A stretch of DNA of 64,000 nucleotides from Enterococcus sp. 9D6_DIV0238 (GTDB taxonomy: Bacteria > Bacillota > Bacilli > Lactobacillales > Enterococcaceae): NCBI RefSeq assembly GCF_002174455.2, contig NZ_CP147246.1, forward strand, positions 709,501 through 773,500. The letters run 5' to 3'. A program made the position numbers and the translations under genes. This document shows, in pieces, positions 23,435 to 27,258 of this stretch; the first letter of the stretch is position 1, and the number at the start of each line of letters is the position of its first letter. Below the pieces are notes generated by a model that saw only the letters and a list, made by a program, of their open reading frames with translations, made no database searches and was not told the origin of the DNA.

Positions 23435-23463
23435 TTGACTTCCGTTATTGAATTGATTATAGT
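23435..23463 (+). promoter_or_regulatory. SigmaA promoter of the M-box/LCP/SEDS operon
   Basis: TTGACT (23435-23440) and TATAGT (23458-23463) are spaced by 17 bases; transcription should start about 8 bases before the riboswitch core. Confidence 0.82.
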
Positions 23464-23475
23464 TGTGGCGATCTA

Positions 23476-23640
23476 AATAACTTGTTAGGTGAGGCTCCTA
23501 TGAAAACACAGGCTACTGCTCAAAAATGTCGAAAGACAGGCATGGGTAGGACAGGAATTGTCGAATTAAGGCTTTTCACAAAGTAGCTAAAAGCAATGCT
23601 TTTTACGTTTCATAGTGCTAAAACTCAACGATGAGAATGA
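23476..23640 (+). ncRNA. M-box (ykoK) magnesium riboswitch aptamer
   Basis: The conserved M-box core occurs in order: TTAGGTGAGGCTCCTAT (23485-23501), GGCTACTGCTCAAAAATGTC (23511-23530), GAAAGACA, ATGGGT, ACAGGAATTGTCGA (23551-23564), and near the 3' end CATAGTGCTAAAACTC (23611-23626) with ACGATGAG. These match the Mg2+-sensing ykoK leader of B. subtilis closely. In the family, high Mg2+ stabilises the aptamer and lets the downstream terminator form. The first downstream gene is an LCP protein at 23849, not a transporter. Confidence 0.93.
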
Positions 23641-23669
23641 TGACCCTTTTTTATGCTGGAATCAATCCC

Positions 23670-23701
23670 CTTCGCTGAGTCTTTTTCAGCGAAGTTTTTT
23701 G
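23670..23701 (+). terminator. Expression-platform terminator of the M-box
   Basis: CTTCGCTGA (23670-23678), seven bases, TCAGCGAAG (23686-23694) and TTTTTT. It lies 33 bases after the aptamer and 148 bases before the LCP start. Confidence 0.9.
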
Positions 23702-23848
23702 TTTTGGATCAGTGAACTGTTTGGAGGTGAAAAATCAGCTCGGTCTAAACAACCTAGTCAGCAAGAAAACGGTCATCCCGACGTATATGTCGATTCCTAG
23801 CGCCGCAATTTATTTGATGATCAATAAAATGATTAGCGAGGAATAACA

Positions 23849-24775
23849 ATGAATCTAGTAAAAAAGAGTTTGATTTGTATTAGTCTTATCACTGTTTTGA
23901 TTTTTACCGCTCTTGGCTGTTATGCAGTCATCGGCTTTCATCATGGTAAAAAAACAGCCCAAACACACATCACTAAACGAAAGAATTTGACTTTTTCTGC
24001 AGATGCACAAACAAATTTAAAAGAAATCACGATTCTATTGATCGGTGATGACGGACGCGAAGATGACGAAGACGGTGGACGGGCAGATACGTTGATGGTG
24101 GCGCATTATAATAGTGAAGCCAAACAACCAAAGCTGCTGTCGATCATGCGGGATTCTTACGTTCAAATACCTGGACATGGAGCAGAAAAAATCAATGCTG
24201 CCTACGCTTACGGTGGAGCTGAGCTGACTAAACAAGTCTTGAATAGCTCCTTTGATCTGCCCATCAATTATTATATAGCCGTTGATTTTAACCATTTTAT
24301 TCGTTTGATCGATGATCTTTACCCCAAAGGTGTCCAAATCGATGCAGAAAAAGAGCTGAACTTAGATAACGTCGATATAAAAAAAGGCAATCAAACAATG
24401 GATGGGAATACTTTATTGCAGTACGCCAGATTCCGCATGGATGGCGAAGGAGACTTTGGTCGTATCAGAAGACAGCAGCAAGTCATGGACGCTTTAGCAA
24501 AACAAGCTACAAACGCGGTCCCACTTTTACAGCTGCCTCAAATTGCTGGAGAAGCCGTTGGTTATCTAGACACGAATATTCCAGCCGAACTTCTGATCGA
24601 TTTAGCCAAAGACTTTTTAGGTGGGAAAGTAAAACCTCTTCAAACCTTATCTGTTCCAGTTGAAGGGAGCTGGGCATTTAACGATTATACGGAGGCAGGC
24701 AGTGTTTTAGAAATCGATGAGAAGCAAAATGCACAGGCGATAAATGACTTTTTAACTGACGGAGCAGATGAATGA
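23849..24775 (+). CDS. LytR-CpsA-Psr (LCP) family cell-wall glycopolymer transferase
   Basis: LCP proteins attach teichoic acids or capsular polymers to peptidoglycan. The 308 residues have one N-terminal membrane segment (about 7-30) and an extracellular LCP domain with LLIGDDGRE, RADTLMVAHYN, LSIMRDSYVQIP, EKINAAYAYGG, YLAVDF-like YYIAVDFNHF and RFRMDGEGDFGRIRRQQQV, which together hold the conserved Asp and Arg residues that bind the polyprenyl-phosphate head group and Mg2+. The ATG follows GCGAGGAATAAC. The stop overlaps the next start (ATGA), so the three genes at 23849-27116 form a tight operon. Confidence 0.92.
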   Translation: MNLVKKSLICISLITVLIFTALGCYAVIGFHHGKKTAQTHITKRKNLTFSADAQTNLKEITILLIGDDGREDDEDGGRADTLMVAHYNSEAKQPKLLSIMRDSYVQIPGHGAEKINAAYAYGGAELTKQVLNSSFDLPINYYIAVDFNHFIRLIDDLYPKGVQIDAEKELNLDNVDIKKGNQTMDGNTLLQYARFRMDGEGDFGRIRRQQQVMDALAKQATNAVPLLQLPQIAGEAVGYLDTNIPAELLIDLAKDFLGGKVKPLQTLSVPVEGSWAFNDYTEAGSVLEIDEKQNAQAINDFLTDGADE

Positions 24776-25953
24776 AGACGCTGCGGAAGCCTTCCAAAAT
24801 AGTTTATCTAGATTTTTACCTCCTTCTCCCTTATCTTATTTTGTGTGTGATCGGCATTTTAATGGTATATAGCGCTAGTTCTTATCAATTGCTTGATAGC
24901 CAATCAAGTCCGGCACATAAAGCATTCAAGCAGACCTCTTATTTTATTTTCAGTCTGGTTTGTTTAGCTATCGTCTATCGGATCAATTTAGCTGTTTTGA
25001 GAAAGCCTACGATTATTCACATGTTGCTTGGCCTGACATTTCTTTCCTTAATTCTATTACCAGTCATCGGAACAAGCGTTGGCGGTGCCAAACGTTGGCT
25101 CAATTTAGGAATTCTTTTGTTTCAGCCTTCAGAGTTGGTCCCATTTATTTTAGTGCTTTATCTGGCTCTTGCATTATCAAAAACAGAAACCGTCACGCCT
25201 TTCTCTTTCAAACAGTACAGACAGCCGATAATCGTTTCGATCAGCTTGATGTTTTTCGTTGCTTTACAGCCAAACATCGCTGGTGCTTCCATGATTTTTA
25301 TTCTAGTATTGATTTTATTTTTAACCAGCGGACTGTCACCGTGGTTTATGTCATTTGCTTTGATCGGGTTCGTCATCGCAAAAAAATTGGGAACAATGCT
25401 CTTATTATCTTTGCCCACAGAGTGGCTGCCGCAAAAATTCAGTTACTTAGTGACACGTTTTGAAGTCATGCAAAATCCTTTTATCGATCCTATGGGCAAA
25501 GGCTTTCAAACATCCAATGCCTATTATGCGATCCATAATGGCGGATTTTGGGGCTTAGGTTTAGGAAACAGTATTCAGAAAAAAGGCTTTTTACCTGAGC
25601 CTGATACAGATTTTATTTTTGCGATATGTATAGAGGAACTTGGCTTGATTTTTTCTTTGGGCATTCTATTTTTGGTCTTCTTTATGGTCGCTCGCTTGCT
25701 TTTATTAGGGATAAAAACGAATCGTCTTTATTATTCTTACCTGTACATTGGCTGCGGTGTCTTATTGCTCTTGCAGGTTTCTGTCAATGTCGGCAGTCTT
25801 TTGGGCTATATCCCGATGACTGGACTGACCTTTCCATTTATCAGCTATGGCGGATCTAGTCTATTGATCTTGAGCCTTGTTCTCGGTGTTGCGTTGAATG
25901 TTCGCGCAAGCGAGCTGAGAGAAAAACAACGATCACGAGGTGAAAGCCAATGA
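24772..25953 (+). CDS. SEDS-family peptidoglycan glycosyltransferase (FtsW/RodA/SpoVE), first copy
   Basis: A 393-residue polytopic protein with about ten membrane helices. Family landmarks are VGGAKRWLNLGILLFQPSEL, GLGLGNSIQKKGFLPEPDTDFIFAICIEELG (the Asp in the PDTDF segment, about residue 278, corresponds to the catalytic Asp of RodA/FtsW) and PMTGLTFPFISYGGSSLL near the end. SEDS proteins polymerise lipid II glycan strands with a partner class b PBP. No PBP gene is adjacent. It overlaps both neighbours by four bases. Whether it is the FtsW or RodA orthologue cannot be decided here; the duplicated, LCP-linked context suggests an accessory pair. Confidence 0.92.
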   Translation: MKTLRKPSKIVYLDFYLLLPYLILCVIGILMVYSASSYQLLDSQSSPAHKAFKQTSYFIFSLVCLAIVYRINLAVLRKPTIIHMLLGLTFLSLILLPVIGTSVGGAKRWLNLGILLFQPSELVPFILVLYLALALSKTETVTPFSFKQYRQPIIVSISLMFFVALQPNIAGASMIFILVLILFLTSGLSPWFMSFALIGFVIAKKLGTMLLLSLPTEWLPQKFSYLVTRFEVMQNPFIDPMGKGFQTSNAYYAIHNGGFWGLGLGNSIQKKGFLPEPDTDFIFAICIEELGLIFSLGILFLVFFMVARLLLLGIKTNRLYYSYLYIGCGVLLLLQVSVNVGSLLGYIPMTGLTFPFISYGGSSLLILSLVLGVALNVRASELREKQRSRGESQ

Positions 25954-27116
25954 AACGAATTCGGAACAGATCGAATGAGCTGATCAATTACGGTCTTTTA
26001 CTCCCAGTTTTGCTACTGATCTTAGTTGGCTTTGTCGCACAATACGGTGCTTTCAAAGCTGATCCTACGATCACTGCTGTCACTCCATTGCTAATAAAAC
26101 AGCTGTTGTGGACACTCTTAGGAATCATCACTATGTTTTTGACGATGCTGATTCCAATCAAAATTTTATGGAAAGCTGCTCCTTATCTTTATCTTTGTTC
26201 CCTGATTTTGATGGGCTTGTTAGTAAAATTCCATGATCCTGTGATGGCTGTTGCTACCGGAACCAAACGCTGGATTCGCCTTGGTCCGCTTGCTTTTCAG
26301 CCTTCTGAGTTTGCAAAATTGGGCTATATTCTGATGCTGGCTTATCTCGTGACAAAATATGGTAAGACATTCTCTTCGCTAAAAGAGGAGCTGTCACTTT
26401 TAGGAAAACTATTACTTGTGAGCATCCCTATTTTTGGACTGATGTTTTATCAAAAAGATTTTGGGACTAGTTTAGTTTTTCTATCGATTTTATTTGGTAT
26501 TCTACTTGTTTCAAGCTGCTCTTGGAAACTTTTGGTTCCTCTTTTTGGCGGTTTGAGTTTGATCGGCATCAGTGCGATCTTGTTGGTTTTAACGGAGCAA
26601 GGGCAAAAAATACTTGCCTATTTACACTTTAAGCCTTATCAATTCGACCGTATTCACGCTTGGCTGGATCCATTTGCTTATGCGGATTCGATCGCTTTTC
26701 AGCAAGCTAGAGGGTTGAGCGCGATTGGGTCAGGAGAATTAGCGGGAAAAGGACTGACCAATTTACAAGTCTACGTCCCAGTTCGGGAATCCGATATGAT
26801 CTTTACCGTTATCGCTGAAGCCTATGGATTTATCGGAAGTTGCTTCCTGCTCTTACTTTTCTTCTATCTCATATATCAAATGCTGATCTGTACTTTAGCA
26901 GCTAAACGAGAATTTTATGCTTATATCACGACTGGGATCATCATGTATTTTTTGTTTCATATCCTAGAAAATATCGGTTCAAATATTGGATTATTGCCTT
27001 TGACTGGTATTCCGTTGCCTTTTATCAGCCAGGGAGGAACTGCTTATCTAGCGAATTTTATTGCTATCGGATTGATACTTTCCATGTTCTATCAAAATGA
27101 AAAACAGGCTCTTTGA
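25950..27116 (+). CDS. SEDS-family peptidoglycan glycosyltransferase, second copy
   Basis: A 388-residue paralogue of the preceding gene, sharing TGTKRWIRLGPLAFQPSEFAK, an SDMIF segment retaining the catalytic-type Asp at about residue 280, and PLTGIPLPFISQGGTA. Identity between the two copies looks moderate, so the duplication is old. The start overlaps the upstream stop (ATGA). Two SEDS genes in tandem could act as alternative polymerases under different Mg2+ or wall-stress conditions; this is inference from the shared riboswitch leader. Confidence 0.9.
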   Translation: MKRIRNRSNELINYGLLLPVLLLILVGFVAQYGAFKADPTITAVTPLLIKQLLWTLLGIITMFLTMLIPIKILWKAAPYLYLCSLILMGLLVKFHDPVMAVATGTKRWIRLGPLAFQPSEFAKLGYILMLAYLVTKYGKTFSSLKEELSLLGKLLLVSIPIFGLMFYQKDFGTSLVFLSILFGILLVSSCSWKLLVPLFGGLSLIGISAILLVLTEQGQKILAYLHFKPYQFDRIHAWLDPFAYADSIAFQQARGLSAIGSGELAGKGLTNLQVYVPVRESDMIFTVIAEAYGFIGSCFLLLLFFYLIYQMLICTLAAKREFYAYITTGIIMYFLFHILENIGSNIGLLPLTGIPLPFISQGGTAYLANFIAIGLILSMFYQNEKQAL

Positions 27117-27137
27117 TTCGCAAATGTTTATACGAAT

Positions 27138-27192
27138 AAAGTGACTCATCAAATTTAGCCTAAACCCGCTAAAAATGATAAGTCACTTTTTT
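27138..27192 (+). terminator. Terminator of the LCP-SEDS-SEDS operon
   Basis: AAAGTGACTCATCA pairs with TGATAAGTCACTTT around a 22-base loop and is followed by TTTTTT. Confidence 0.82.
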
Positions 27193-27258
27193 ACCGTATG
27201 GTATCGAGATTATTTTTAACATTTCTCAGTCTTATATTTATACCGACAGCAAATCTTT

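Follow-up and report, generated by a model that had tools for sequence, protein, structure and literature searches.

M-box magnesium riboswitches precede accessory cell wall assembly genes in Enterococcaceae

Introduction

A link between Mg2+ and peptidoglycan synthesis has long been suspected from physiology. M-box (ykoK leader) RNAs are known mainly as switches of Mg2+ transporters, and the M-box of ykoK (mgtE) in Bacillus subtilis is described as a transcriptional OFF-switch with an intrinsic terminator (PMC12810186). Here, we analyze a stretch of 64,000 nucleotides from Enterococcus sp. 9D6_DIV0238 (contig NZ_CP147246.1, positions 709,501 to 773,500 of the forward strand; hereafter the window), which contains an M-box of the same Rfam family, RF00380. 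Whereas the B. subtilis M-box controls a Mg2+ transporter, the one in the window leads a gene for an LCP (LytR-CpsA-Psr) glycopolymer transferase and two genes for SEDS glycosyltransferases, SEDS1 and SEDS2.

Two described operons come close to this arrangement. The lmo2689-lmo2686 operon of Listeria (Mg2+-type ATPase, ftsW2, rodA3) shares with it a leader M-box and the order of its accessory FtsW/RodA pair, but starts with mgtA and has no LCP gene after it. The enterococcal ftsW-psr-pbp5 operon of E. faecium and E. hirae is likewise led by an M-box, and its Psr and FtsW are related to the LCP and SEDS1 proteins of the window; it differs by the order FtsW-LCP, by a class B penicillin-binding protein (PBP) in place of the RodA-type SEDS, and by another terminator sequence. 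Further away, the M-boxes of pe20 and rv1535 in Mycobacterium tuberculosis are conserved and their targets are likewise not classical transporters, but their reported platform is translational and involves Rho and a small open reading frame (ORF) that is conserved, with PE/PPE genes and then mgtC as targets (PMC12810186); the small ORF found in the window is not conserved. The ydaO-yuaA riboswitch has also been reported on cell wall remodelling enzymes, but it is another RNA class with another ligand, described in that context from Corynebacteriaceae and Clostridiaceae (PMC3766115).

Results

The covariance model of RF00380 matched the window at 23474-23643 (+ strand) over its full length (model 1-169 of 169) with 150.4 bits (E 2.9e-34), the sole match there above the gathering score of 44 bits. 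This aptamer lies in the 5' leader of the LCP gene, directly upstream and on the same strand, with a sigma-70-type promoter ahead of it (TTGACT-17-TATAGT, 23435-23463) whose 3' end is ten bases from the aptamer start, and with an intrinsic terminator in between (23670-23705), which would serve as the expression platform. The terminator pairs CTTCGCTGAG with TTCAGCGAAG in a stem at 23670-23694, followed by TTTTTTGTTT in a T-rich tail, and folds with -14.0 kcal/mol. An untranslated leader (23706-23848) separates it from the LCP gene (23849-24775), to which the genes for the FtsW-type SEDS1 (24772-25953) and the RodA-type SEDS2 (25950-27116) are joined on the same strand, each junction being a 4-base overlap according to the coordinates. 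Downstream of SEDS2, a strong hairpin with a T-run, AAAGTGACT...AGTCACTTTTTT (27138-27192, +), is the probable operon terminator (-25.6 kcal/mol when all of 27117-27220 is folded). The three products match PF03816, PF01098, and PF01098, and a Mg2+ transporter, the typical though not defining target of an M-box, is not among them.

Consensus scans alone would not have supported the promoter and terminator, since they returned nine promoter-like sites against a shuffle mean of 12.0 and three terminator-like sites against a mean of 4.0. Both calls exceed chance because the elements are conserved across 35 leaders, namely that of the window and 34 taken from the genus census described below, in which 35 M-boxes are followed by LCP or SEDS genes (the E. 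caccae locus L130 was omitted). Promoter type and spacing are identical in all 35, and the promoter keeps its position before the aptamer within one base. The 5' arm of the terminator reads CTTCGCTGAG in 31 leaders, differs at its last base in one, and reads TTTCGTTGAT in three; the 3' arm is more variable. The 5' arm is complementary to a conserved CTCAACGA at the 3' end of the aptamer (23624-23631, +), which we propose as the antiterminator strand; their duplex is calculated at -7.0 kcal/mol and contains one A-C mismatch, and in the three leaders with TTTCGTTGAT the arm pairs perfectly with CAACGAA of the aptamer, as judged by eye from the alignment. A near-invariant 5' arm facing a varied 3' arm fits a strand that would also be required to pair with CTCAACGA, and complementarity between this arm and the 3' core of the aptamer is as expected of an antiterminator.

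Based on these sequence features and on established M-box work, we consider it likely that the LCP and SEDS genes are transcribed as a single unit controlled by an M-box OFF-switch with the corresponding response to Mg2+. At high Mg2+, the folded aptamer would hold CTCAACGA, the terminator would form, and the LCP and SEDS genes would be off; at low Mg2+, CTCAACGA would pair with the 5' arm of the terminator and RNA polymerase would read through. The architecture agrees with the original prediction, which had claimed an M-box with its own promoter and terminator, followed by an LCP gene and two overlapping SEDS genes. The gap of 148 bases given there is measured to the LCP start from position 23700, where the first T-run ends, and becomes 205 bases when counted from the end of the aptamer, and the claim that no second promoter is recognizable in it also held: the best site at 23704-23848 had 7 of 12 matches, a score equalled or beaten by 93% of 500 base-composition shuffles.

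The same gap contains a 44-codon ORF with a GTG start (23712-23846), for which we considered a role like that of the small ORF at the M. tuberculosis M-box; we rejected it, the frame being broken by indels in relatives, and a 39-codon form had no match in Pfam or NCBIfam. Conservation in this region takes another form: GGAGGTG is present in 10 of 11 aligned leaders and a TTTATTTGATGATCAA..AAAATGATTAGCGAGGAATA-like block is kept right before the LCP start (together 23726-23846), not as a peptide. These elements are possibly a second, translational control.

The LCP protein matches PF03816 with 151.6 bits (cut-off, 24.6) and has solved LCP structures among its relatives. SEDS1 and SEDS2 match PF01098 with 256.6 and 256.9 bits (cut-off, 26.4), and each has an aspartate (within TDFIFA and SDMIFT, by visual inspection) that we take to correspond to the catalytic aspartate motif of the large SEDS loop. 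Their best NCBIfam models are ftsW for SEDS1 (272.7 bits; cut-off, 337.5) and rodA_shape for SEDS2 (262.4; cut-off, 336.7). SEDS1 has its closest database match, at 99% identity, in a protein assigned to an unclassified Enterococcus, and a sister genome with 90.6% identity over 6.3 kb has four SEDS genes, two of which are this pair. Because both proteins score below the NCBIfam cut-offs and the pair accounts for two of four SEDS genes in the sister genome, SEDS1 and SEDS2 are, by these comparisons, accessory relatives and not the canonical FtsW or RodA, which upholds the earlier view of them as an alternative pair.

In a midpoint-rooted tree of 28 chosen LCP proteins, the 23 sampled M-box-linked proteins, Psr included, formed one clade (support, 100/100) apart from the five without an M-box, and we therefore regard the LCP of the window as a relative of enterococcal Psr/LcpA. 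It groups with the E. hirae and E. faecium Psr proteins, not with the other enterococcal LCPs, and is 51% identical to the E. hirae protein. What polymer it would attach can only be guessed, teichoic acid being one guess; in a paper on E. hirae, the role of LcpA (Psr) is called unknown, and a rhamnose-containing polysaccharide is put forward as a tempting hypothesis. A tree of 43 chosen SEDS proteins placed the M-box-linked FtsW types of Enterococcaceae and of genome G153, including the FtsW of the pbp5 operon, in a clade of 15 (95/96) beside housekeeping FtsW, and the M-box-linked RodA types in a clade of 12 (86/81) beside housekeeping RodA. This tree, which was built without the housekeeping SEDS proteins of Listeria, did not support an ancestry of the enterococcal pair in Listeria FtsW2/RodA3.

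The association between M-box and wall genes is recurrent in the genus. A search with the LCP protein returned 28 loci: the M-box, LCP, SEDS1, and SEDS2 were all found at the seven closest (75-82% identity), an M-box stood directly before the LCP gene at all ten paralogous loci (61-66%), within which there was no SEDS match, and no M-box was present in the DNA fetched for the 11 more distant ones. Seven species, including E. termitis, E. moraviensis, and E. ureilyticus, are represented in both of the first two groups, and this LCP gene thus has an M-box before it at two paralogous positions. We then classified by downstream genes all 95 M-boxes listed for 22 genomes of the genus, each of which has M-boxes. 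Wall genes follow 49 of them (18 LCP alone, 14 PAP2 or PAP2-LCP, 13 LCP-SEDS-SEDS, and 4 SEDS-SEDS), Mg2+ transport genes follow 43 (27 MgtA, 14 MgtC, 1 MgtE, and 1 GNAT-MgtA), and 3 lead neither; at least one wall-linked M-box occurs in 21 of the 22 genomes, G024 being the exception. Looking for RF00380 beside SEDS genes in other Enterococcus genomes, a check proposed with the original prediction, gave a positive answer.

Three kinds of locus deserve a separate mention. At L130 of E. caccae, the M-box is kept before the SEDS pair, and only a 138-codon ORF occupies the place of the LCP gene, which seems to have been lost or shortened. At L132, L071, L087, and others, the M-box is followed by a PAP2-LCP gene and then by a diaminopimelate dehydrogenase gene, which is odd, as lysine is regarded as the wall amino acid of this genus. 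Finally, high-scoring M-boxes at L066 (genome G012) and L072 (G013) have as their first recognized same-strand gene hemW, about 3 kb on; relatives have mgtA between.

Across the family, an M-box was found in 101 of 105 Enterococcaceae genomes. Among 179 M-box places in 65 genomes, 94 were wall-first, 81 Mg2+-first, and 4 unclassified, with a wall-first copy in 56 of the 65; this tally is biased to high scores outside the genus and leaves at least 13 listed places unfetched, and its genes were predicted by us and named by BLAST against labelled clusters, each place taking the label of the first such gene on the same strand within 1300 bases. Recurrent orders were SEDS-SEDS-PAP2/LCP, SEDS-SEDS-LCP, LCP-PBP5, and SEDS(FtsW)-LCP-PBP5. 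Such operons occur in named records too: pCR1A of E. gilvus has M-box, FtsW, RodA, and PAP2/LCP, and pCX012922 of E. raffinosus has the same order, its two SEDS genes being separated by a copy of IS110. PAP2 phosphatases fused to an LCP domain (e.g., L137:2946-4571 and L286:7597-9201), often found in M-box operons with two SEDS genes, would make these operons compact wall assembly sets. The single E. faecalis record with an M-box (L284) reads M-box-MgtC-GNAT-MgtA, and a tandem pair of M-boxes about 160 bases apart was seen at G242:C16:177527-178040.

At the level of the order, 209 of 295 genomes had an M-box. Twenty regions were fetched, of which 8 read MgtA-SEDS-SEDS, 1 LCP-SEDS (G153), and 9 MgtA-first, with 1 short MgtA-like fragment and 1 unrecognized; of 12 loci retrieved automatically, 10 were of the Mg2+ type and 2 were SEDS loci of genomes already counted. 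All eight fetched Listeria-type genomes carried M-box-MgtA-FtsW2-RodA3, as did the named record L. monocytogenes FDAARGOS_57, and a search with FtsW2 from one Listeria-type genome gave six matches, the four named ones all being Listeria. Wall-linked M-boxes thus look like a trait of Enterococcaceae and Listeria, not a rule for the order.

The pbp5 locus, an operon known for resistance to penicillin-type drugs, extends this picture to a penicillin-binding protein. The order M-box-FtsW-LCP-PBP5 was found in five genomes (G049, G052, G053, G057, and G060) and M-box-LCP-PBP5 in three (E. mundtii Pe161 [G007], G054, and G055). G052 is E. hirae: its V-ATPase A subunit shows no difference over 579 residues from the solved sodium V-ATPase chain of that species, and its LCP has 293 residues, the length reported for E. 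hirae Psr. The PBP5 of G053 matches nearly throughout a solved PBP5, that of E. faecium. G052 also has an M-box before RodA-PAP2 in addition to that at ftsW-psr-pbp5. In E. faecium Dallas 5 (NZ_CP065930.1), an M-box of 138.9 bits precedes the annotated FtsW, LCP, and PBP genes (positions 2150-2316 of locus L227). No M-box was present in the DNA fetched for two IS1216-flanked plasmid stretches carrying psr-pbp5 or pbp5 alone (L226 and L228).

The position of this M-box bears on published motifs. A recent report assigns TCGAAA (101 nucleotides upstream of the start codon) and TATATT (76 nucleotides upstream), separated by 19 bp, as the promoter of E. faecium ftsW and describes beside it a palindrome, GAAAAGGT-N5-ACCTTTTC, found by MEME in the stretch from -250 to +2 (PMC13148053, 2026). 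In L227, TCGAAA lies at 2334-2339 and TATATT at 2359-2364, 19 bases apart and, counted by hand, 101 and 76 bases from the GTG at 2441; the palindrome lies at 2336-2356, and all these motifs fall 18-48 bases past the aptamer, inside the expression platform. All nine psr-type leaders examined have a terminator stem of AGGTCAGAA with TTTCTGACCT or TTTCTGGCCT (-15.3 to -19.4 kcal/mol) and a competing palindrome hairpin (-7.6 to -8.1 kcal/mol), and UUGUUCGA, just ahead of the palindrome, is able to pair with the aptamer's CUCGGACGA (-7.5 kcal/mol). From these pairings, we infer that the published palindrome would be the antiterminator of the M-box. Promoter matches in the nine leaders are weaker and varied (8-10 of 12).

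Elsewhere in the window, an adenosylcobalamin (AdoCbl) riboswitch of 93 bits (1159-1301, - strand) lies upstream of an ORF truncated at the window start that resembles, by eye, an iron-type alcohol dehydrogenase.

Discussion

Comparison of these loci leads us to propose that the M-box of Enterococcaceae governs two branches: Mg2+ uptake through MgtA, MgtC, and MgtE, and an accessory set of wall assembly enzymes comprising a Psr-type LCP, an extra FtsW and RodA, and PAP2 or PAP2-LCP, with PBP5 in the faecium group. On balance, we believe that the M-box is the family's master switch of this accessory branch of peptidoglycan synthesis and polymer attachment, ftsW-psr-pbp5 included, that Mg2+ helps to set the level of low-affinity PBP5, and that the promoter and palindrome assigned to E. 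faecium ftsW are parts of the terminator and antiterminator of a riboswitch; this broader proposal is probable, if less firmly so than the OFF-switch in the window. Its purpose would most likely be to sustain wall polymerization and polymer attachment when Mg2+ is scarce.

Several observations weigh against M-box control of these genes. The antiterminator pairing has an A-C mismatch in most leaders, and an unconstrained fold of the window leader contains the terminator hairpin, which would make switching dependent on cotranscriptional folding. Support for the RodA-type clade is only moderate (86/81). Variants of nusG and rpoB in E. faecium are reported to raise PBP5 protein without more transcripts of the pbp5 operon (PMC13148053), counter to what plain attenuation would predict. 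Finally, the one published test that comes near this question was negative: a Plmo2689-lacZ fusion in Listeria is reported to be unchanged by 300 ug/ml MgSO4 or by ethylenediaminetetraacetic acid (EDTA) in brain heart infusion (BHI), to be induced by several cell wall antibiotics, and to report on an operon of the CesRK regulon (PMC6686043). BHI with EDTA may not have been limiting for Mg2+ in that test, and the fusion may or may not have included the riboswitch.

The last result would suit an explanation in which envelope stress dominates, a two-component system (CesRK in Listeria, CroRS in E. faecium) switching the promoter and the M-box acting only as a ceiling or leak damper at normal Mg2+. 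Variants of croS are indeed reported to raise the ftsW, psr, and pbp5 transcripts of E. faecium (PMC13148053), and the weaker, varied promoters of the nine psr-type leaders would suit an activator. The strong sigma-70 site conserved in all 35 leaders of the window group, however, makes no need for an activator evident, and the aptamers of wall genes have not decayed: they score about 138-166 bits in the genus, against 114-127 for one mgtA-linked class, with other mgtA- and mgtC-linked ones reaching 153-166. We consider dominance of envelope stress unlikely, and dual control, with a contribution of wall stress systems in Listeria and the faecium group, likely.

A second idea concerns purpose and would sit within the preferred explanation of an M-box-governed wall branch, not beside it: the M-box enzymes might be metal-sparing isozymes that replace Mg2+-hungry housekeeping ones at low Mg2+, for example, a PAP2-type undecaprenyl diphosphate phosphatase in place of UppP/BacA. 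UppP needs a divalent metal, PAP2 enzymes are not known to need one, and 14 of the 95 genus M-boxes lead genes with a PAP2 domain (PF01569), alone or with LCP; LCP and SEDS enzymes are, however, themselves thought to use a divalent metal, and we hold this idea with little confidence. Less likely still is hitch-hiking, in which an ancestral M-box-mgtA-ftsW-rodA operon lost mgtA and the SEDS and LCP genes kept the leader without a function tied to Mg2+. The Listeria-type operons have the order that such an ancestor would have had, but many of the 22 genus genomes combine separate M-boxes at LCP-SEDS-SEDS, LCP alone, and PAP2-LCP, E. hirae has its own M-boxes at ftsW-psr-pbp5 and at RodA-PAP2, and Listeria FtsW2 and RodA3 group apart from the M-box-linked enterococcal proteins in the SEDS tree, given its sampling. 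That the RNA is vestigial or answers another divalent ion is highly improbable: one mycobacterial M-box aptamer may also associate with other divalent cations (PMC12810186), but the near-consensus core of the window aptamer, the conservation of its platform over 35 leaders, and the retention of an arm complementary to the aptamer, not expected of a dead switch, argue for a working one.

In search listings and selected passages from the open-licence literature of PubMed Central (PMC), we found no link between M-box RNAs and SEDS, LCP, or PBP genes, supplements being outside the scope of that search. The words "riboswitch" and "M-box" are absent from the main text of the lmo2689 operon paper (PMC6686043), and these words and "magnesium" are absent from the main texts of two papers on the psr-pbp5 operon (PMC11077988 and PMC13148053). 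Annotation based on Rfam may already list these aptamers without comment; an RNA map of E. faecium and E. faecalis reports 13 E. faecium riboswitches, tabulated in its supplement (PMC7724050), and the M-box before ftsW may be among them.

Control of the pbp5 operon has a contested history, psr having once been thought to repress PBP5 and the matter having been disputed since. If our proposal of an M-box-governed wall branch is true, ftsW-psr-pbp5 would gain a new input, and the sequence ahead of E. faecium ftsW would call for a different reading. More broadly, the sequence comparison suggests that Mg2+ supply helps to set which wall-building enzymes enterococci make, and a conserved second branch of M-box targets among wall polymerases would, if true, tie Mg2+ sensing directly to peptidoglycan synthesis.

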